From Planomonospora sp. ID82291 (GTDB taxonomy: Bacteria > Actinomycetota > Actinomycetes > Streptosporangiales > Streptosporangiaceae), in contig NZ_JABTEX010000002.1 of NCBI RefSeq assembly GCF_015711645.1, positions 558,001 through 622,000 of the forward strand: a stretch of DNA of 64,000 bases. Reading direction: 5' to 3'. A program made the translations under genes and the position numbers. This document shows positions 26,241 through 37,542 of the stretch, one piece after another. Each line of letters opens with the position of its first letter. The first letter of the stretch is position 1. The notes below the pieces were generated by a model. That model saw only the letters and a list, made by a program, of their open reading frames with translations. It did no database searches and was not told the DNA's origin.

Positions 26241-27599
26241 ATGGAACGCCAGCCGAACCGCTCCCTCCGACGGCTCATCGCCGAGGCCGGATTCACCTAC
26301 AAGGGACTGGCCCGCGAACTCAACGAGCTCGGCCGGGCGCGCGGCCTGTCCGGGCTGAGGTACGACCACAGCTCCGTCCTGCGCTGGCTCGGCGGCCAGC
26401 GCCCCCGCGACCCGGTCCCGGCCCTGCTGGCGGAGATCTTCTCGCTGCGGCTCGGCCGGACGGTCACCCCGCAGGACATGGACATGTCCGCGGTGACTAC
26501 GCCTCTCGACGTGGGGCAGGAGTTCCCGCACACCTGGGACGAAGGGGTCGCGAGCGTGACGGCGTTGTGGCGGGCGGACGTGGAGCGGCGCAGGTTCCTG
26601 GTGGACTCCACCTTCGCGATCGGGGCCGGTTCGGTCGGCGCGGTGCGCTGGCTGACCCTCCCGGCGGAGACCCGCCCCGCCGCGGGCGGCTCCCGGCGGG
26701 TGGGCATGGCCGACATCTCCGCGATCCGGGAGGTCACCCGGTCCTTCGGCGAACTGGACAACAGGTTCGGCGGCGGCCGGATCCGTGCGGCGGTGGTGAA
26801 GTACCTCGACACGGCCGTCGCCCCGCTGCTCAACGACGGCTCCTACGCCGAGGCCACCGGCAGGGAGCTCGCCTCGGCCGCCGCCGAGCTGACCCGGCTG
26901 GCCGGCTGGATGGCCTACGACCTGGAGCACCACGGGGTCGCCCAGCGCTACCTGATCCAGGCGCTGCGCCTGGCCAGGGGGGCGGGGGACCACGGCCTCG
27001 GCGGGGAGATCCTCGCCGGCATGAGCCACCAGGCCGCCTACATCGGGCAGCCCGCCCACGCCCTCGACCTCGCCCGCGCCGCCCAGCTCTCGGCCCGGCG
27101 CGCCGGGATCGCCTCCCTGCTGGCCGAGGCGCACGTGCTGGAGGCCCACGCGCAGGCGCTGCTGGGCGACCGTACGGCCTGCCGCGCCGCGCTGCACCAG
27201 GCGGAGCTGGCCTTCGACCAGAGGAAACCCGGGGACGAGCCCGAGTGGATCGCGTACTTCGACGAGGCCTACCTGTCGGCGAAGACCGCTCACTGCTTCC
27301 GCGACCTGCGCGACGGGCCGCAGGCCGTACGGCACGCGCGGCGGTCGCTGGAGATGGACGGGCGGTTCGTGCGCGGGCGCATGTTCAACCTGTCGCTGCT
27401 CGCCGCGGGGCTGCTGGAATGCGGCGAGCTGGAGGAGGCCTGCCCGGCGGCCGGCGAGGCGCTGGAGCTGGCGGGCGGGTTGCAGTCGGCCCGGACCCGG
27501 TCCTATGTCACCGACCTGCGCCGGCGGCTGGAGCCGCACGCCGCCGAGCCCGCGGTGGTGGAGCTGGACGAGCGGATCAGGGAGCTCGCCCCGGCCTGA
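26241..27599 (+). CDS. HTH/TPR-type regulator (NsdA-like family)
   Basis: A 452-aa protein. The N-terminal ~75 residues (LRRLIAEAGFTYKGLARELNELG, SSVLRWLGGQRP) form a divergent XRE-like DNA-binding helix-turn-helix; residues about 150-440 are helical repeats of TPR type. This layout matches the Streptomyces NsdA/related regulators that influence development and antibiotic production. ATG start with GGAGAACG upstream. It stands alone between two terminators. The target genes are unknown. Confidence 0.75.
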   Translation: MERQPNRSLRRLIAEAGFTYKGLARELNELGRARGLSGLRYDHSSVLRWLGGQRPRDPVPALLAEIFSLRLGRTVTPQDMDMSAVTTPLDVGQEFPHTWDEGVASVTALWRADVERRRFLVDSTFAIGAGSVGAVRWLTLPAETRPAAGGSRRVGMADISAIREVTRSFGELDNRFGGGRIRAAVVKYLDTAVAPLLNDGSYAEATGRELASAAAELTRLAGWMAYDLEHHGVAQRYLIQALRLARGAGDHGLGGEILAGMSHQAAYIGQPAHALDLARAAQLSARRAGIASLLAEAHVLEAHAQALLGDRTACRAALHQAELAFDQRKPGDEPEWIAYFDEAYLSAKTAHCFRDLRDGPQAVRHARRSLEMDGRFVRGRMFNLSLLAAGLLECGELEEACPAAGEALELAGGLQSARTRSYVTDLRRRLEPHAAEPAVVELDERIRELAPA

Positions 27600-27710
27600 G
27601 CGGGAACGTTCCACCGGGAGACCCCGGTGCCCCGGGGTCTCGTCCTGACAGGCGGCCTGTGGGGAGTCCTGCCGGTCTTCCCGGGGCGTTCTCGTTCGTC
27701 GGGGGAATGG

Positions 27711-27746
27711 CCGAGGGGCCCGGCGGGAATCCGCCGGGCCCCTCGG
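27711..27746 (-). terminator. terminator of secreted pseudoprotease copy A
   Basis: Perfect 16-bp stem (CCGAGGGGCCCGGCGG / CCGCCGGGCCCCTCGG), four-base loop, about 60 bases past the stop codon. Confidence 0.85.
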
Positions 27747-27806
27747 GTGGAGCAGGGTGAGTCGTCAGGGTGTGGACCCCTGGAGGACTCGGGTGATCGT
27801 CGGGTG

Positions 27807-29411
27807 TTACTTGACGATCGAGCCGGACCAGACAGCCGCGGCCTTGGTGTAGATGGCGTTGGTCTCGCCATCGAAGTAGGCCGAGGTGCTCAGGTCGTAG
27901 CGGTTGTTCTTGTCCTGGTCACCGAAGAGGCTGGTGACACCGTTGACGTAGCCCAGACGCTTGGCGTTGCTGTACTTGATGAGCCACGGGGAGCCGTCGG
28001 CGCCCGGGGTCATCGCGCACTTGAGGCCGACGTGCTCCTCGACCTTGGTCGCGGCGTGGGTGTAGGTCTTGCCGGTGGTGGTGCCGTAGCACCACTTGGC
28101 GGTCACGCCGGTGTAGGCCTTGTGGCCGTCGGGGTGGGCGTCGGCCGGGTAACCGAAGATGTAGACCTTCTGGCCGGTCTTCTGGTTCCAGGCGAAGCCC
28201 TGGCCACCGACGTTGTCGCCGAGGCGGCCGGTGTCCTTGATGAAGTCCGCGGCCAGCCAGTAGGTCTCGACCCAGTACTGCATCTGGACCGTGGACTTGA
28301 CCCACTTCTTGACGTAGAACTGCTGCTTGGCCCAGCCGATGACCTTGTCACCCTGCTTGACCTCGGTCAGCTCACCGAGGAAGTTGCCGTCGGCCTTCTT
28401 GGCCTTCAGCTCGTTGTACTCCTCGAGGCTGATCGGCACCGGCTTGCTGTCGGACTTGCCGACGTACTGGTTGCCGTTCTCCAGGCCGTCACCGGCAGCG
28501 GTGTAGACGGACTTGACGACCTCGACGCCGACCAGCTTGACGCCGTCCTTGCCGTCCTCGTCGGTGTAGTCGTGGACGTTGGCCCCGGTCACGTTCGCCG
28601 GCTTGGCGATGTGCTCGACCTTGGGGTCGGCGGCCTTCGACTGGTACGGGCCGTTCTCGCCGAACTTCTCGCGGCCGGCGATGAAGGTCTTCTCGTCGAT
28701 GGCCTTCGTGTCGACGAACTTGCCCGGGCCGGTGGCCTTGTCGAACTCGCTCTTCGAGACCTGCTTGGCGGAGCCGCCGCCGACCTGCACGCCGTTGTAG
28801 ACGGTGACGAACGCGTAGTCGCGGTCGCGGTCCTCGAAGGCGGCGAAGTCGTAGTGGGTGTAGGCGGTCTTACCGACGTACACGCCCCACGGAGCCTTGC
28901 CCTGGTAGTAACCCGGGACGAAGATCCACTTGTCCATGACGCTGGAGTTCTTGGCGTCGTCGTAGACGCAGTGGCCCGCGGTCGCGACCAGGTTGCGGTA
29001 CTTGGCCTCGATCGAGGTGGCGGAGCACCACTTCAGGCCGCCGTCGGAGTCGACGAAGAACACCTTGCCGATGGTCTTGGGCAGGTTGATGTTCTTGACG
29101 ACCGAGGTGGCCTTCTTGCCCTCGCCGGTCGGCAGCACCGAGCCGGGCTTGCCGTCGGGGGTGTAGCCGCCGCCGACGCTCAGCTTCGGCGTGGCCTTGG
29201 TCTCCCAGGTGTAGGGCGTGGCCTTGGCGAGGTTGTTGGTCTTGTAGTTGGCGCCCAGCCAGAACTCCGCGGTCTCGAGCGCGGTGGGGGCGTCCTTGGC
29301 CATCGTGTCGAAGGCCCACTGCGGGTCGGCCTGAGCGGTGCCGGCCAGACCGGCGGCCAGCAGACCGGTGGCCAGAACGGCGCCACCGGCGGGGAGGAGG
29401 ATGCGCTTCAA
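27807..29411 (-). CDS. secreted trypsin-like protein, catalytic Ser replaced (copy A)
   Basis: A 534-aa exported protein of the trypsin/V8-like peptidase fold. Signal peptide 1-28 (AQA cut before DPQ). His147 in TAGHCVYD and Asp198 in RDRDYAFV fit the catalytic dyad positions, but the serine motif reads TPGADGSPW with Asp472 where the paralogues have Ser (GASGGP, GSSGSP), so proteolysis is unlikely. A long insertion (about 205-410) separates the Asp and serine regions. TTG start with AAGGAG six bases upstream. Copy B at 30166-31770 encodes the identical protein. Confidence 0.88.
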   Translation of the reverse strand: MKRILLPAGGAVLATGLLAAGLAGTAQADPQWAFDTMAKDAPTALETAEFWLGANYKTNNLAKATPYTWETKATPKLSVGGGYTPDGKPGSVLPTGEGKKATSVVKNINLPKTIGKVFFVDSDGGLKWCSATSIEAKYRNLVATAGHCVYDDAKNSSVMDKWIFVPGYYQGKAPWGVYVGKTAYTHYDFAAFEDRDRDYAFVTVYNGVQVGGGSAKQVSKSEFDKATGPGKFVDTKAIDEKTFIAGREKFGENGPYQSKAADPKVEHIAKPANVTGANVHDYTDEDGKDGVKLVGVEVVKSVYTAAGDGLENGNQYVGKSDSKPVPISLEEYNELKAKKADGNFLGELTEVKQGDKVIGWAKQQFYVKKWVKSTVQMQYWVETYWLAADFIKDTGRLGDNVGGQGFAWNQKTGQKVYIFGYPADAHPDGHKAYTGVTAKWCYGTTTGKTYTHAATKVEEHVGLKCAMTPGADGSPWLIKYSNAKRLGYVNGVTSLFGDQDKNNRYDLSTSAYFDGETNAIYTKAAAVWSGSIVK

Positions 29412-29688
29412 GGGAAACTCCTTGGTCTGTCGTGGAACGCATCTTGCGTCCCATGCGTCAGTAAAGGGATAGCCAGGAACATACAGCCCCGATCTTGAAA
29501 AACGGAAGCCGCTTCGCGGGTGAAAAACGGCACCCATCCGAGCGTGACCGTTCCGTTATCTGATCTGAGGTTTGGAAACATTGATCTCGCATGACCTGGT
29601 GGGTCGCGTTTGTGCAGATCACCATAAGGATGTTGTAAGTGGTGATGATGTGACGTGAGTGTTCCGATACGTTCCGTTACGACAGCCC

Positions 29689-29704
29689 TGTGATGCAGAT
29701 CACA
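29689..29704. promoter_or_regulatory. perfect CRP-type palindrome upstream of copy A
   Basis: TGTGATGCAGATCACA matches TGTGA-N6-TCACA exactly, 278 bases upstream of the gene start. An identical-consensus site lies at the same distance from copy B. Confidence 0.65.
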
Positions 29705-29757
29705 GGGAACGGATGGCACCGATTCGGGGTCCGCCACGTCTAACGCTGTCGACATCG

Positions 29758-29785: not shown

Positions 29786-30069
29786 TTTCGATGTTCGTGC
29801 GCTGCCGGTGAGACCGCCGGGCCGGATCCGGCGGCGGGAAAGATCCCTGCGCCGCCCTCCGGTTGCTCCCGCCGTGAACCCTGGAGCGTCCGTGCGGAGC
29901 GAGTGGGTCCGGGCGCCGTGGCCGGGGCGGAAACGTGCGTGGGAGCCGGATGATCGCTCCTGTGACGGGCCCCGCCCGTCGCAGGGAAACCGTTCCCGCG
30001 GTCGGCAGGCGCGTCCGCGGCCGGCTGATCCGCTGCGGACGGAGGCCGTTCCCCCTGTCGGGGGAACGG

Positions 30070-30105
30070 CCGAGGGGCCCGGCGGGAATCCGCCGGGCCC
30101 CTCGG
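30070..30105 (-). terminator. terminator of secreted pseudoprotease copy B
   Basis: Same perfect 16-bp stem as in copy A. Confidence 0.85.
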
Positions 30106-30165
30106 GTGGAGCAGGGTGAGTCGTCAGGGTGTGGACCCCTGGAGGACTCGGGTGATCGTCGGGTG

Positions 30166-31770
30166 TTACTTGACGATCGAGCCGGACCAGACAGCCGCGG
30201 CCTTGGTGTAGATGGCGTTGGTCTCGCCATCGAAGTAGGCCGAGGTGCTCAGGTCGTAGCGGTTGTTCTTGTCCTGGTCACCGAAGAGGCTGGTGACACC
30301 GTTGACGTAGCCCAGACGCTTGGCGTTGCTGTACTTGATGAGCCACGGGGAGCCGTCGGCGCCCGGGGTCATCGCGCACTTGAGGCCGACGTGCTCCTCG
30401 ACCTTGGTCGCGGCGTGGGTGTAGGTCTTGCCGGTGGTGGTGCCGTAGCACCACTTGGCGGTCACGCCGGTGTAGGCCTTGTGGCCGTCGGGGTGGGCGT
30501 CGGCCGGGTAACCGAAGATGTAGACCTTCTGGCCGGTCTTCTGGTTCCAGGCGAAGCCCTGGCCACCGACGTTGTCGCCGAGGCGGCCGGTGTCCTTGAT
30601 GAAGTCCGCGGCCAGCCAGTAGGTCTCGACCCAGTACTGCATCTGGACCGTGGACTTGACCCACTTCTTGACGTAGAACTGCTGCTTGGCCCAGCCGATG
30701 ACCTTGTCACCCTGCTTGACCTCGGTCAGCTCACCGAGGAAGTTGCCGTCGGCCTTCTTGGCCTTCAGCTCGTTGTACTCCTCGAGGCTGATCGGCACCG
30801 GCTTGCTGTCGGACTTGCCGACGTACTGGTTGCCGTTCTCCAGGCCGTCACCGGCAGCGGTGTAGACGGACTTGACGACCTCGACGCCGACCAGCTTGAC
30901 GCCGTCCTTGCCGTCCTCGTCGGTGTAGTCGTGGACGTTGGCCCCGGTCACGTTCGCCGGCTTGGCGATGTGCTCGACCTTGGGGTCGGCGGCCTTCGAC
31001 TGGTACGGGCCGTTCTCGCCGAACTTCTCGCGGCCGGCGATGAAGGTCTTCTCGTCGATGGCCTTCGTGTCGACGAACTTGCCCGGGCCGGTGGCCTTGT
31101 CGAACTCGCTCTTCGAGACCTGCTTGGCGGAGCCGCCGCCGACCTGCACGCCGTTGTAGACGGTGACGAACGCGTAGTCGCGGTCGCGGTCCTCGAAGGC
31201 GGCGAAGTCGTAGTGGGTGTAGGCGGTCTTACCGACGTACACGCCCCACGGAGCCTTGCCCTGGTAGTAACCCGGGACGAAGATCCACTTGTCCATGACG
31301 CTGGAGTTCTTGGCGTCGTCGTAGACGCAGTGGCCCGCGGTCGCGACCAGGTTGCGGTACTTGGCCTCGATCGAGGTGGCGGAGCACCACTTCAGGCCGC
31401 CGTCGGAGTCGACGAAGAACACCTTGCCGATGGTCTTGGGCAGGTTGATGTTCTTGACGACCGAGGTGGCCTTCTTGCCCTCGCCGGTCGGCAGCACCGA
31501 GCCGGGCTTGCCGTCGGGGGTGTAGCCGCCGCCGACGCTCAGCTTCGGCGTGGCCTTGGTCTCCCAGGTGTAGGGCGTGGCCTTGGCGAGGTTGTTGGTC
31601 TTGTAGTTGGCGCCCAGCCAGAACTCCGCGGTCTCGAGCGCGGTGGGGGCGTCCTTGGCCATCGTGTCGAAGGCCCACTGCGGGTCGGCCTGAGCGGTGC
31701 CGGCCAGACCGGCGGCCAGCAGACCGGTGGCCAGAACGGCGCCACCGGCGGGGAGGAGGATGCGCTTCAA
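30166..31770 (-). CDS. secreted trypsin-like protein, catalytic Ser replaced (copy B)
   Basis: Encodes the same 534 residues as copy A, including the signal peptide, His147, Asp198 and Asp472 in place of the nucleophile. TTG start and ribosome site are identical. Its upstream region beyond 31870 differs from that of copy A, so the two genes may be expressed differently while the protein is kept the same. Two copies could raise dosage of a non-catalytic secreted protein, for example an inhibitor, decoy or binding partner of the active paralogues; that role is conjecture. Confidence 0.88.
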   Translation of the reverse strand: MKRILLPAGGAVLATGLLAAGLAGTAQADPQWAFDTMAKDAPTALETAEFWLGANYKTNNLAKATPYTWETKATPKLSVGGGYTPDGKPGSVLPTGEGKKATSVVKNINLPKTIGKVFFVDSDGGLKWCSATSIEAKYRNLVATAGHCVYDDAKNSSVMDKWIFVPGYYQGKAPWGVYVGKTAYTHYDFAAFEDRDRDYAFVTVYNGVQVGGGSAKQVSKSEFDKATGPGKFVDTKAIDEKTFIAGREKFGENGPYQSKAADPKVEHIAKPANVTGANVHDYTDEDGKDGVKLVGVEVVKSVYTAAGDGLENGNQYVGKSDSKPVPISLEEYNELKAKKADGNFLGELTEVKQGDKVIGWAKQQFYVKKWVKSTVQMQYWVETYWLAADFIKDTGRLGDNVGGQGFAWNQKTGQKVYIFGYPADAHPDGHKAYTGVTAKWCYGTTTGKTYTHAATKVEEHVGLKCAMTPGADGSPWLIKYSNAKRLGYVNGVTSLFGDQDKNNRYDLSTSAYFDGETNAIYTKAAAVWSGSIVK

Positions 31771-32047
31771 GGGAAACTCCTTGGTCTGTCGTGGAACGCA
31801 TCTTGCGTCCCATGCGTCAGTAAAGGGATAGCCAGGAACATACAGCCCCGATCTTGAAAAACGGAAGCCGATCGGGAACCGGCGAAGCCGGTCACATCCG
31901 CCGATATCATTCCGTTACCTATGGCCACCACTGGACCCCTTGTTGGCCTTGGGGGTGGAGTGCCGTGTCTTCGCAGCTAGGTCGAGGGTTGTGATGAATG
32001 CGACGGATGTTGTGTAGTCGGACGTGTACCGTGGGTGGCGAACCCTC

Positions 32048-32063
32048 TGTGACGCAGATCACA
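32048..32063. promoter_or_regulatory. perfect CRP-type palindrome upstream of copy B
   Basis: TGTGACGCAGATCACA, 278 bases upstream of the copy B start codon, exactly as in copy A, although the bases between are diverged. Confidence 0.65.
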
Positions 32064-32112
32064 GGGAACGGACGGCACCGATTCGGCGCCCGCCACGTCT
32101 AACGGAACTCGA

Positions 32113-32173: not shown

Positions 32174-33382
32174 TCAGTCCACGCGCTGGCTGCCCGCGTA
32201 CCGGTAGACGACATAGGTCGACAGGGTGAAGTACGGCGAGGAGATCAGGTCGTACCGCTTGTCGACGTCGGTGTCCCAGGCGAAGCTGTTGACCCCGTTG
32301 AGGTAGCCGAGGCCGCGCTTGATGTCGTATGCGATCAGCCACGGACCGCCGCTGGCGCCGGCGGTGAACCCGCACTTCAGTGCGACGCCGTACTCCACCA
32401 GGCGGGCGGGGGCCGCCTGCTTGCGCGTCTGGCCGTCGCACGACTTCAGCTCCTGGCCGTTGAAGGGCTTGCTGCCGTCGAGGTGGGGGGCGGCGGGGTA
32501 GCCGAAGGCGAAGGTGTACCTGCCCGGACCGTGCCGGAAGACCAGCCCCTGTCCGCCGACGTTGTCCTCCAGGCTGCCCGTGGGCTCCATCTCGTGGGAA
32601 CCCGCGGTCTTGCCGGCCTTCCACCGGAAGCCGTCGTGCACGGTGACGAAGGCGTAGTCGTAGTCGTAGTCGCCCTTGCCGACGAAGCTCTCGTGCAGGT
32701 TGAGGGAGTGGCCGACGTAGATTCCGTACGGCGTGGCGCCTCTGTCGTAGCCCGGGATGAAGATCCAGTACTCGGCGGACCTGCCCGTCTTGGCGTCGTA
32801 GGCGCAGTGGGCGGCCGTCGCGACCAGGTTCCTGCCCGCGGAGGCCACGGCGGAGGCCGAGCACCAGTAGTCCTTGTCCCCGATCCGGAAGAACACCTTC
32901 CCGACGGTGATGGGAGCGGGGCCGGCGGCCTGCGCCTTCTTCTTCGGCGAGGTGGGTTCGATGACCGGAGAGGAGCCCGCGGTGGTGGTCACGGTGGTGG
33001 TCGTCCGCTCTCCGCCGGTCGTGACGGTCGGGGCGGTCGAGGTGGTGGCCGTCTGCTCTCCCGCCGCCGCGGCGGTGGTGGCCTGGCCGGCGCCGCCGGG
33101 GGTGGGGGAGGCCGGGGGCGGCGTGGGGGCGCTCTCGCTGGGCTTGACCCCGGGGATCGCCGGGGTGTTGTCCTGCGCCTGCTTGAGCCGTTCCGGGCTC
33201 CAGTAGCCCGCGATCCGCTTCATGTCGGCGTGGTTCCGAGTCAGCGTGACGGACGTGACGCCGTTCGGCACCCCGTCCCACGGACTGGCCGCGGCGCTCC
33301 CGGGGAAGGCGGACATCGCGGTCGCACAGACGGCGACCAGGGCGCCGAATGTGGCCGTGAGCCGCCGGACGCGGGAGGACAT
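32174..33382 (-). CDS. secreted trypsin-like serine protease (short type)
   Basis: A 402-aa exported serine protease paralogue. Signal peptide about 1-32, then a Thr/Ala/Pro-rich spacer (about 80-150). The catalytic residues look intact: His192 in TAAHCAYD, Asp in YDYDYAFVTV, Ser344 in TAGASGGPWL. The region between Asp and Ser is short, lacking the large insertion of the 534- and 523-aa paralogues. SLEDNVGGQG and FAFGYPAAPHLDG are shared family motifs. ATG start with AAAGGA. The Thr-rich spacer could be a glycosylated wall-spanning linker (inference). Confidence 0.86.
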   Translation of the reverse strand: MSSRVRRLTATFGALVAVCATAMSAFPGSAAASPWDGVPNGVTSVTLTRNHADMKRIAGYWSPERLKQAQDNTPAIPGVKPSESAPTPPPASPTPGGAGQATTAAAAGEQTATTSTAPTVTTGGERTTTTVTTTAGSSPVIEPTSPKKKAQAAGPAPITVGKVFFRIGDKDYWCSASAVASAGRNLVATAAHCAYDAKTGRSAEYWIFIPGYDRGATPYGIYVGHSLNLHESFVGKGDYDYDYAFVTVHDGFRWKAGKTAGSHEMEPTGSLEDNVGGQGLVFRHGPGRYTFAFGYPAAPHLDGSKPFNGQELKSCDGQTRKQAAPARLVEYGVALKCGFTAGASGGPWLIAYDIKRGLGYLNGVNSFAWDTDVDKRYDLISSPYFTLSTYVVYRYAGSQRVD

Positions 33383-33588: not shown

Positions 33589-35160
33589 TCAGGCCGGGAG
33601 CTTGCCGGTCCACAGGTTGGCGGCGTGCTTGTAGATGCCGTAGGTCTCCCCGTTGAAGTACGGGGTGGTGACCCGGTCGTAGCGGTTGTTGCCGTCGCTG
33701 TCGATCGTGAGGCTCACGACGCCGTTGACGTATCCGGTCCGCTTGCTGTTCTTGTAGCGCAGCAGGAAGGGGCTGCCGCTGGACCCCGGAGTGAAGGCGC
33801 ACTTGATGGCCTGGTGCTCCTGGGCGTTGTACTTCGGCACGTCCGGAGCGTTGCCGGTGGCGCCGTAGCACCACTTCATGGTGTGGCCGCTGTACGGCTT
33901 GTGGCCGTCCAGGTGGGCGTAGGCCGGGTAGCCGAAGGTGAAGACCTTCTTGCCCAGCTTCTGGTTCCAGCTGAAGCCCTGGCCGCCGACGTTGTCGCCC
34001 AGGCGGCCGGCGTCGGCCAGCGTGATCACGAAGTACCGGGTGTGGAAGTACAGCTCCTTCACCGTGATCTTGACCCACTTCTTCACGAAGTACTGGGACT
34101 TGAACCAGGCGATCTCGTTGCCGTTGACGTCCTTGGTGGCCTCGAGCCTGCCGAGGAAGCCGCCGTCCGCCTTCTGCTTGACGAGCCTGTCGTACTCTTC
34201 CTTGCTGATCGGCGTCCTGACGGTCTTGCGCTCGAACCTGTTGCCGTTCTCCAGGCCCTTGGGAGCCTTGTCGTAGACGCTCTCGACGACCTCGACGGCC
34301 GTCAGCTTGATGCCGTTGCGGCCGCCGGCGACGTACTCCTCGATGTGCTTCGCGGCATCGGCCGGCTTGGCGACGTGCTCGACGGTCGGGTCGACCGCCT
34401 TCTTCCAGTACGGGCCGAGCTCGCCGTACCTCTCGTAGCCCTTCTCGAACTCCTCCTTGGAGATCGCCCGGTCCTCGGTGTACTTGAAGCCCTTGGCGGC
34501 CGTGTACGCGGACTTGCCGACCTCCTTCACGCCCGTCTGCCTGATGCCGTTGTAGACGTTGACGAACGCGTAGTCGTAGTCGTAGTCCTCGTAGACGTCG
34601 AAGTCGTGGTGCATGTTGACCTTGGCGCCGACGTAGATGCCCCAGGGGGCCTTGCCCTGGTAGTAGCCGGGGATGAACACGAAGTTGCTGAAGGGCTTGT
34701 TCGTGTCGGTGTCGTAGACGCAGTGGCCGGCGGTGGCGACCAGGTTGCGGTACTTCGACTGGACCGAGGTGCCGGAGCACCAGCGCTCCTGGCCCTTGTC
34801 GTCGAGGAAGAAGACCTTGCCGACGGTGATCGGCAGGTTGACGTTCCTGGACCGGCCGGCGGACTTGCCGCCCTCGCCGGTCGGCGCGACGATGCCGGGC
34901 CTGCCGTCGGCGGAGGCCTTCGTGCCGCCCACCTGCAGCTTGCCGGTGGCGGTGGACTCGGCGAGGTAGGTCTTCGCCTCCTTCAGCTTCGAGGAGGTCC
35001 AGTAGCCCGCGATGGCCTGCGCGTTGGCAGAGGGGGCGAGCGTCGCCGACGTCAGGTCGGGCTCGGCGTGGGCGGTGCCGGCGAGGGCGCCGCCGGCCAC
35101 GGAGGCGGCCACGAGAGCACCTCCCAGGGGGAGGGCGAGGTGCTTGACTCGGGGGTTCAC
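33589..35160 (-). CDS. secreted trypsin-like serine protease (long type)
   Basis: A 523-aa paralogue closest in layout to the 534-aa pair. Signal peptide about 1-33 (AHA cut). His146 in TAGHCVYD, Asp in YDYDYAFVNV and Ser461 in TPGSSGSPF form a complete triad, so this is likely active. It carries the long insertion (about 205-405) shared with the pseudoproteases, including DPTVEHVAKPAD, VEVVESVY, GLENGN and VKKWVKITVK. GTG 35160 is preferred over an upstream ATG because GGAGC is correctly spaced and the signal peptide begins there. Confidence 0.87.
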   Translation of the reverse strand: MNPRVKHLALPLGGALVAASVAGGALAGTAHAEPDLTSATLAPSANAQAIAGYWTSSKLKEAKTYLAESTATGKLQVGGTKASADGRPGIVAPTGEGGKSAGRSRNVNLPITVGKVFFLDDKGQERWCSGTSVQSKYRNLVATAGHCVYDTDTNKPFSNFVFIPGYYQGKAPWGIYVGAKVNMHHDFDVYEDYDYDYAFVNVYNGIRQTGVKEVGKSAYTAAKGFKYTEDRAISKEEFEKGYERYGELGPYWKKAVDPTVEHVAKPADAAKHIEEYVAGGRNGIKLTAVEVVESVYDKAPKGLENGNRFERKTVRTPISKEEYDRLVKQKADGGFLGRLEATKDVNGNEIAWFKSQYFVKKWVKITVKELYFHTRYFVITLADAGRLGDNVGGQGFSWNQKLGKKVFTFGYPAYAHLDGHKPYSGHTMKWCYGATGNAPDVPKYNAQEHQAIKCAFTPGSSGSPFLLRYKNSKRTGYVNGVVSLTIDSDGNNRYDRVTTPYFNGETYGIYKHAANLWTGKLPA

Positions 35161-35635
35161 GGTAGCTCCTTCTTTGTCATGAGCGCTCGGGTGGCTCACG
35201 CGTACGTAAAGAGACAAGAGGAGACGGTACTCAGCAAAGATGGTGTAAAGGGGCAGTAATCCGGCATCAAGATGGACCGTTATGTTTTCGTTGCGGAATC
35301 AGCGGAACCGAAAGATCCTGACCAGCGTCGGATCTTCTCCTGATCGGCATTCGTCGGCGATGCCCTCCGTACGGCCATCCTGAGCTGCGGAGACGTCGGA
35401 CCGCCCGCCGCCCGGAGGCGGTGTCCGCAGGGTGCCGGAGGAATCTTCCATGACTGGGGCTCCGCGGGTTTCCGGGCAACCCATCAGTCGGTGCCCGGAG
35501 GGTTTCCGTCAAGCGCCCGCACTTCGCCGGGGCGGCCCGCCCGGAACGAGGCCACCGTCACCGGTTCGGCGGGAGGTGGTCGGCCGGGCCGCCGAGGCCG
35601 ACGGTCAGGGGAACGTCCTGTGCGTCACGAGGCCG
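35161..35635. other. 475-base intergenic region
   Basis: Between the long-type protease start and the PIN toxin stop. It holds an AT-richer patch (about 35205-35295) that probably carries the protease promoter. I see no gene and no convincing operator. Confidence 0.6.
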
Positions 35636-36399: not shown

Positions 36400-37542
36400 C
36401 TACTTCGTCCAGCGGTTGGCCGCGACCCTGTAGACCTGGTGGGTGTCGCCGTTGAAGTACGGCGAGGAGACGTGGTCGTAGCGGTCGTTCTTGTCGGTGT
36501 CCCAGGCGACGCTGTTGACGCCGTTGAGGTAGCCGGTGCGGGTGGAGCTCCGGTACTTCAGCAGGAACGGGCCGCCGCTGGCGCCCGCGGTGAAGGCGCA
36601 CCGGAAGCCGACGTGCTCCTGGATGGTGTACTTCGGCGCGGCGGGCATGGCGGCGGTCGCACCGTAGCACCACTTCATCGTGCGCCCGGTGAACGGCTTG
36701 TCGCCGTCGGGGTGGGGTCCGGCCGGGTAGCCGAAGGAGAAGACCTTGTTCTTCACCTTCTGGTTCCAGGCGAAGCCCTGGCCGCCGACGTTGTCACCGA
36801 GCCGGCCGACGTTCTTGACGACCGGCTTCCACTTGCCGTCCTTGTCCTTCTCCCAGCTCACCTTGACGCCGGAGTGGACGTTGACGAAGGCGTAGTCGTA
36901 GTCGTAGTCCTCCTTCACGACGAAGTCGTCGTGCGCGTTGAACCACTTGGCCGCGTAGACGCCGTACGGGTTCTTGCCGTCCCAGGCCTGGGTGCCGTCC
37001 CAGTAGGACGGGATGAAGACCCAGTTGTCGTAGAACTGGTTGGTCTTCACGTCGTAGACGCAGTGCGCCGAGGTGGCGACCAGGTTGCGGTACCTGCTCT
37101 GGATCGAGGTGCCGGAGCAGTACTTCCAGCTCTTCGGGTCCAGCGGGTCGGCCTTGGGCAGCGTGAAGAAGACCCGGCCGACCGTGTTGGGCAGGTTGAC
37201 CTGCTTGCTCTTGGTGGCCGCGCCGCCTCCGGGGCCGCTCGGCGGGACGGCTCCGGCCTTGCCGGTGGGCCCGGCCGCCGAGGAGGCCTTGCCGCCCCGG
37301 ACGCTGAGGTCGACGTCGCCGGTGGCGTCGGTGGCCTTTCGCATGCGCTCCGGCGACCAGAAGGAGGTCGCCTCGGCAGGGGTCTCCGACGCGGTGGACG
37401 TCACCACGTCGGAGGGTGCCCCCGTACCGGTGACGCCGGTGGCGCTCGCGGCGCTCGCGCCGGCGGAGGTGGCGCCCATCGCTCCGGCGACCATGAGGAG
37501 GCCGGTGAGGGGGACGGTGAGGCGCCGTGCTCGGGGATTCAA
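36400..37542 (-). CDS. secreted trypsin-like serine protease (short type)
   Basis: A 380-aa paralogue of the family. Signal peptide about 1-32, then a Gly/Ala/Pro spacer. His160 in TSAHCVYD, Asp in YDYDYAFVNV and Ser322 in TAGASGGPF make a complete triad. CSGTSIQSRYRNLVATS and RLGDNVGGQGFAWNQ are near-identical to the long-type members, but the insertion is absent. Translation begins at TTG 37542 behind AAAGGAG. It is the first gene of the five-member array in transcription order. Confidence 0.87.
   Translation of the reverse strand: MNPRARRLTVPLTGLLMVAGAMGATSAGASAASATGVTGTGAPSDVVTSTASETPAEATSFWSPERMRKATDATGDVDLSVRGGKASSAAGPTGKAGAVPPSGPGGGAATKSKQVNLPNTVGRVFFTLPKADPLDPKSWKYCSGTSIQSRYRNLVATSAHCVYDVKTNQFYDNWVFIPSYWDGTQAWDGKNPYGVYAAKWFNAHDDFVVKEDYDYDYAFVNVHSGVKVSWEKDKDGKWKPVVKNVGRLGDNVGGQGFAWNQKVKNKVFSFGYPAGPHPDGDKPFTGRTMKWCYGATAAMPAAPKYTIQEHVGFRCAFTAGASGGPFLLKYRSSTRTGYLNGVNSVAWDTDKNDRYDHVSSPYFNGDTHQVYRVAANRWTK

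Follow-up and report, generated by a model that had tools for sequence, protein, structure and literature searches.

Two genes in the window, the whole stretch of 64,000 nucleotides that was analysed, encode identical proteins with Asp472 at the position of the trypsin nucleophile Ser195. They were termed copies A and B. Asp at this position is old and conserved, and it is more than chance because 119 of the 333 complete members of the family have it. We consider it fairly probable that copies A and B are secreted pseudoproteases of the trypsin fold, that they come from an old lineage with Asp substituted for the nucleophilic Ser, and that they work beside Ser paralogues with an intact triad. 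The array is a natural experiment on the purpose of a protease site once its nucleophile is gone. Ser was lost twice in the one family; where Asp took its place the His-Asp pair stays, and where Leu, Ile or Val did the pair was repeatedly lost. This contrast allows new chemistry to be tested against a structural Asp-His pair in the Asp lineage. The pairing of active and inactive proteases also becomes testable in bacteria outside the magnetotactic groups.

The two copies, their array and the predicted fold

The features of the two copies are as follows.

27807-29411, minus strand: coding sequence of copy A, 534 aa, with a TTG start shortly downstream of AAGGAG and Asp at the Ser195 position
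30166-31770, minus strand: copy B, coding sequence identical to copy A
27996-27998, minus strand: Asp472 codon GAC of copy A (GTC on the plus strand)
30355-30357, minus strand: Asp472 codon GAC of copy B (GTC on the plus strand)
28971-28973, minus strand: His147 codon of copy A, the trypsin His57 position (coordinates calculated from the start of the coding sequence)
28818-28820, minus strand: Asp198 codon of copy A, the trypsin Asp102 position (coordinates calculated from the start of the coding sequence)
29328-29411, minus strand: likely Sec signal peptide of copy A, residues 1-28 (..TAQA/DPQ), read by eye
27709-29511, minus strand: tract of 1,803 bp matching 30068-31870 exactly
30068-31870, minus strand: tract of 1,803 bp matching 27709-29511 exactly

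An earlier note on this DNA had placed Asp at 27996-27998 where the paralogues have Ser, and this was confirmed with GAC read on the minus strand. His147 and Asp198 are in place as it had said, and the residue numbers 472, 147 and 198 were right. Copy A lacks the Ser195 nucleophile of an active family S1 peptidase and has the His57 and Asp102 equivalents of one. In the alignment Asp472, His147 and Asp198 place Asp-His-Asp at the catalytic positions.

The Asp was also found in copy B (30355-30357), as claimed, in an identical coding sequence. Copy B was rejected as independent support for Asp because both genes lie in tracts of 1,803 bp that match exactly. The flanks just outside the tracts match at only 23-50%. 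A block of 58 nt upstream of both copies and outside the tract has 93% identity. An exact tract between unrelated flanks points to gene conversion or to a recent copying event. The sharp borders, together with an older upstream block that is still alike, fit gene conversion; alternatively, a recent duplication may have had its flanks replaced afterwards. The aligned identity of A and B was 0.986 by a measure that includes N-terminal extensions. Near-identical Asp copies were present in other arrays by the same measure (L048 0.92, L049 0.98, L056 0.92, L065 0.84).

The array consists of five minus-strand genes arranged head to tail in the order Ser, Ser with an insert, Ser, Asp copy B and Asp copy A. 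The remaining genes of the array and the gene next to it are listed below.

36400-37542, minus strand: Ser paralogue, GASGGP, without insert
33589-35217, minus strand: Ser paralogue, GSSGSP, with insert
32174-33382, minus strand: Ser paralogue, GASGGP, without insert
26241-27599, plus strand: putative regulator of 452 aa, convergent with and adjoining copy A

The regulator label is our assumption from a resemblance of the N-terminus of the protein, which had no Pfam match. No Rfam family reached gathering scores between 27000 and 39000, none of the four window proteins matched NCBIfam, and no stretch of the viral contigs matched the search patterns. The genome containing the window is 7.58 Mb in 15 contigs. 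As a control, five other S1 homologues of this genome that the pattern resolved (the HtrA-like L159-L161, and L008/L009) were read and all have Ser; L162 and L170 were left out as the pattern did not resolve them.

Copy A is predicted to have the two-barrel trypsin fold of an S1 homologue. An AlphaFold2 model built from 26 sequences had a mean pLDDT of 84.9, and the block around Asp472 was at 93. VIA-align matched the model to Anisep (3wy8) with a Z of 27.2 and an rmsd of 2.1 over 216 residues and to AL20 (3cp7) with a Z of 26.8. A profile of the four window proteins matched the same two structures (E 9e-31 and 4e-28, respectively), and Pfam Trypsin_2 scored 23.3 bits, under its cut-off of 27.6. 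Anisep and AL20 are the closest solved relatives by sequence and fold. Unlike copy A they have a Ser nucleophile (GSSGGP), and their chains of approximately 216-219 residues are without the insert found in copy A:

28242-28775, minus strand: insert of approximately 178 aa in copy A, between the Asp198 strand and the remainder of the second barrel

The insert alone was modelled at a pLDDT of 90.2. It had no match up to E 1 among PDB sequences or in Pfam, in which other inserts had weak, scattered matches. Comparison with solved structures by Foldseek gave nothing at E 0.001, and the best Z was 3.3; this is no proof of a new fold. By eye the insert appears to hold repeated strand-helix units with an xIxxxEY-like motif.

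Spread and age of the Asp state

Copy A matched 135 of the 341 genomes of the host family, in 23 of its 68 genera, at E 1e-60. The genome of the window was the sole one of its genus in this survey; the named relatives were two Streptosporangium, two Nonomuraea and one Thermoactinospora, from which we take the host family to be Streptosporangiaceae. In a class-wide sample 16 of 394 genomes matched at E 1e-20 and 15 of these, the window's own genome included, were of the host family, a proportion which says little on restriction to that family as the sample drew many genomes from it. The sixteenth (G396, E 1.8e-28) had no clean member and was dropped. Among the matches listed in the open-licence literature no description of this protease family was found.

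Loci were selected by similarity and not at random. Forty regions were taken mostly from the best-scoring genomes (L046-L085), and 20 more followed (L139-L158). Also added were L016, the single-match loci, L008 and L009 from the window's own genome, and L125, which was later removed; L017-L045 and L116-L138 are outside all counts. The first batch held 205 family open frames, of which 199 were aligned after removal of four from L015 that repeat L076 and two fragments. From the 176 matches of the second batch 26 repeats (judged on the last 200 residues) and two matches under 250 aa were removed. The resulting 347 rows were reduced to 337 by removing those with a gap at a triad column, those under 350 aa and L125, and to 333 by removing those with no clear GxxG around residue 195.

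The 199 aligned members of the first batch had His, Asp102 and residue 195 as His-Asp-Asp (101), His-Asp-Ser (86), His-Asp-Asn (7) and His-Asp-Leu (2), with one each of Ser-Asp-Asn, Asn-Asn-Asp and a gap. Residue 195 of the 333 complete members was Ser in 136, Asp in 119, Leu, Ile or Val in 62, Asn in 11 and another residue in five. Copies A and B are both counted among the 119, and two others (L139_4853 and L146_6661) align doubtfully. Asp loci were found in at least 12 genus codes (g1, g11, g40, g44, g45, g50, g56, g58, g59, g62, g64, g65). The members with Leu, Ile or Val for Ser make up a second inactive lineage, present in L139-L147, L158 and other loci of g2, g18, g24, g30, g31, g32 and g51. 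Its genes occur in tandem runs of up to six (L139), and there were up to 29 matching stretches in one genome (G082).

Trees were built with FastTree and carry local support only. In the tree of 337 members, from which the triad columns were removed, the main Asp clade had 131 rows comprising 116 Asp, 10 Asn and five Ser (support 93). The matching clade of a smaller tree had 113 rows comprising 101 Asp, eight Asn, three Ser and one gap (support 96). Another Asp member, L085_5282, was nested in a Ser group, and the doubtful L139_4853 and L146_6661 were placed near the Leu/Ile/Val members, for which a single origin suffices (support 92 in the 337-member tree). The earlier note had proposed an alignment of orthologues, with orthologues having Ser counting against its view. 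In that alignment at least 12 genera retain the Asp, which falls almost entirely in one clade, and orthologues with Ser were mostly absent there. Three Ser members within the clade have possibly reverted to Ser (L064_7843-9600, L070_5452-7005 and L071_6625-8178). A fast-evolving Asp member, L081_10029-11621, has Asn at both His and Asp102.

The Asp codons were GAC (117) and GAT (2) and all 11 Asn codons were AAC. Ser was encoded by AGC (106), TCC (18), TCG (7), AGT (4) and TCA (1). A path from Ser to Asp by AGC, AAC and GAC is possible from these codons.

Selection was compared by a simple Nei-Gojobori count on orthologue pairs drawn from 14 genome pairs. As this count ignores base-composition bias, its values were used solely to compare the groups. 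The median dN/dS was 0.348 for Ser (29 pairs, range 0.141-1.8), 0.295 for Asp (26 pairs, range 0.15-0.867), 0.339 for Leu/Ile/Val (12 pairs) and 0.499 for Asn (one pair). For copy A, comparison with five near orthologues (one an Asn member) gave 0.56-0.76, which is above the median of the Asp group. The claim that copy A is not a decaying pseudogene was supported by the spread over genera and by a median for Asp close to that for Ser. The same replacement in many genera, beside intact copies, points to an altered protein preserved for some job. A decaying gene or a sequencing error is hardly credible given Asp in 119 of 333 members and the similar dN/dS of the Asp and Ser groups, and the pseudogene reading was rejected on these two grounds.

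The catalytic pair and possible roles of Asp472

His and Asp102 were both present in all 136 Ser members, 115 of 119 Asp members, nine of 11 Asn members and 42 of 62 Leu/Ile/Val members. They were also present in the five others, which have Ala, Gly or Thr. Asp and Leu/Ile/Val differed with a Fisher p of 1.6e-7, kinship being ignored. Changes of intactness on the tree numbered 0 per 28.5 substitutions per site for Ser, 3 per 19.2 for Asp, 2 per 3.2 for Asn and 8 per 5.9 for Leu/Ile/Val, and the rates for Asp and Leu/Ile/Val differed with a p of 0.0008. Of the 391 columns of the Leu/Ile/Val group, 246 were conserved at least as well as the His column and 236 at least as well as the Asp102 column; the numbers for the Asp group were 58 and 69 of 447. 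Asp472 seems from this to be tied to His147 and Asp198, because the pair is kept in nearly all Asp members and in only 42 of the 62 with Leu, Ile or Val. The two groups differ in genera and sampling, so the contrast is good evidence and not decisive. Retention alone is no proof of a role for Asp since the pair is also kept in the Ala, Gly and Thr members and in most Leu/Ile/Val members.

Column 472 was the sole column that was at least 80% conserved in both the Asp and Ser groups yet differed in residue. At column 494, read as Ser214, 114 of the 119 Asp members have Ser; in the Leu/Ile/Val group 61 of the 62 have Ile there. Cys was present at 441 and at 465 in 89 of 119 Asp members each and absent from all 62 Leu/Ile/Val members. 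The column of Gly470 in copy A, equivalent to Gly193, was Gly in 117 of 119 Asp members with two gaps.

The earlier note had named proteolysis through another serine as a finding that would count against it. Ser474 is two residues past Asp472 in copy A, and a serine protease acting through it or another Ser is very improbable. Column 474 was Gly in 99, Ala in 12 and Ser in eight of the 119 Asp members, and Ser474 was rejected as a substitute nucleophile as just eight have Ser there.

On sequence grounds the Asp protein would be secreted and is likely non-catalytic. It would bind the same kind of substrate or partner as its Ser siblings without cutting it, or would bind and activate a Ser sibling, again without cutting. 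Asp472, which by homology lies beside His147, probably forms a salt bridge with it that would hold the His-Asp pair and the oxyanion loop in an active-like shape. Of the interpretation in the earlier note, the absence of decay stood and copy B added no independent support; a non-catalytic role is likely, as we infer from these comparisons. Several points go against a secreted pseudoprotease working beside Ser paralogues. The site as a whole shows more conservation than would be expected if it served merely as a binding scaffold, and the five Ser members inside the main Asp clade indicate that the line between the two states has been crossed. The raised dN/dS of copy A against its near orthologues and the 10 further loci that have family genes but neither Asp nor Asn also count against it.

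Some serine protease homologues, vertebrate protein Z among them, have a trypsin fold and no working triad and act as binding partners. Protein Z has lost the catalytic His as well, whereas the Asp lineage of copy A keeps it. The array resembles the MamO and MamE pair of magnetotactic bacteria, in which an inactive trypsin-like protein is also encoded with an active relative. According to the report on this pair (PMC4794232), MamO is without protease activity and promotes proteolysis by MamE, which requires it; its nucleophile position is dispensable, its His and Asp matter conditionally, and it binds metal at another place. MamO belongs to the HtrA-like proteins and has Thr as the nucleophile residue and Glu at 193. 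Copy A has Asp472 and Gly470, and so lacks the MamO-type combination of Thr with a residue other than Gly at 193. The Asp lineage further differs from MamO in keeping Gly193 (117 of 119) and in its arrays of several copies. The sole pointer to a MamO-like promotion of a nearby active relative is co-location, with both kinds in 36 of 41 clusters. The Ser-then-Asp cassette across many genera is a new form of the known pairing of active and inactive proteases.

Asp472 could itself be a nucleophile with His147 and Asp198. The protein would then be a trypsin-fold hydrolase derived from a serine protease and kept in many genera alongside the Ser relatives of its array, forming an aspartyl-ester intermediate on an ester, epoxide or other small group and not on a peptide. 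Asp-His-Asp sets are known in haloalkane dehalogenases and epoxide hydrolases, which have a different fold from trypsin. Copy A shares the Asp-His-Asp residues of haloalkane dehalogenase, an alpha/beta hydrolase, and differs in having a predicted trypsin fold. Other chemistry is possible on the grounds that His, Asp102, Gly193 and Ser214 are nearly always kept, the pair in 115 of 119 Asp members and often lost with Leu, Ile or Val. Against this, a literature search aimed at such chemistry found no precedent in a trypsin fold. Within the main Asp clade 10 members have Asn instead, and nine of all 11 Asn members keep His and Asp102, which is at odds with a strict nucleophile. We regard Asp-His-Asp chemistry as unlikely because the His and Asp of MamO can matter when the nucleophile does not (PMC4794232).

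Much the same low probability is given to a decoy role, in which the substrate-like cleft of the Asp protein would sequester protease inhibitors, whether from rivals or from the producer itself, and thereby shield the Ser paralogues. A site almost unaltered except at residue 472, the recurrence of near-identical tandem copies and the keeping of Asp genes together with Ser genes are consistent with it, but strict His and Asp102 are not obviously needed to bind an inhibitor. A metal site made up of Asp472, His147 and Asp198 is improbable. The two Asp and the His are retained together, and the trypsin-like pseudoprotease MamO offers a precedent for metal binding (PMC4794232), but His and Asp102 are ancestral and their presence is thus no sign of a new metal site.

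Locus organisation and the upstream palindrome

The locus is a conserved cassette that begins with Ser genes, continues with Asp (or Asn) genes and ends with a putative regulator in convergent orientation. Across the window and L046-L085, Ser and Asp or Asn genes were together in 36 of 41 loci, and in 35 of these the Ser genes came first; the loci without both kinds were L072, L073, L076, L081 and L084. Relatives of the regulator were found by blastp in 35 of the 41 loci. By tblastn 34 of the 40 fetched loci carry the regulator with an identity of 72-83%, and it is convergent with the last Asp or Asn gene and adjoins it. Of the six fetched loci without it, three (L061, L069 and L070) are at a contig edge. 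It was also found by tblastn in six loci of the further set of 20 (L139-L158). Ten loci of this set speak against the cassette, as they have family genes and, within the stretch read, neither an Asp nor an Asn gene; two of the 10, L153 and L154, have no Leu/Ile/Val gene either. L157 has no counted family member.

A palindrome was found upstream of each copy.

29689-29704, no strand assigned: TGTGA-N6-TCACA upstream of copy A, in the 58-nt block 29688-29745 that is common to copy B
32048-32063, no strand assigned: TGTGA-N6-TCACA upstream of copy B, in the 58-nt block 32047-32104

The scan took at least nine of the 10 fixed positions within 400 bp upstream. The palindrome was present in 72 of 119 Asp genes, 10 of 11 Asn genes, 56 of 60 Leu/Ile/Val genes and none of six other genes. 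Among Ser genes, eight of the 15 inside the 209-row clade holding the inactive lineages have it, as do 12 of the 115 outside that clade. In Markov shuffles the frequency was less than 2% in each group. These counts point to an upstream element common to most genes of the inactive lineages and missing from most Ser genes. It resembles a Crp site. Upstream of inactive-lineage genes of other genera it was often near -285.
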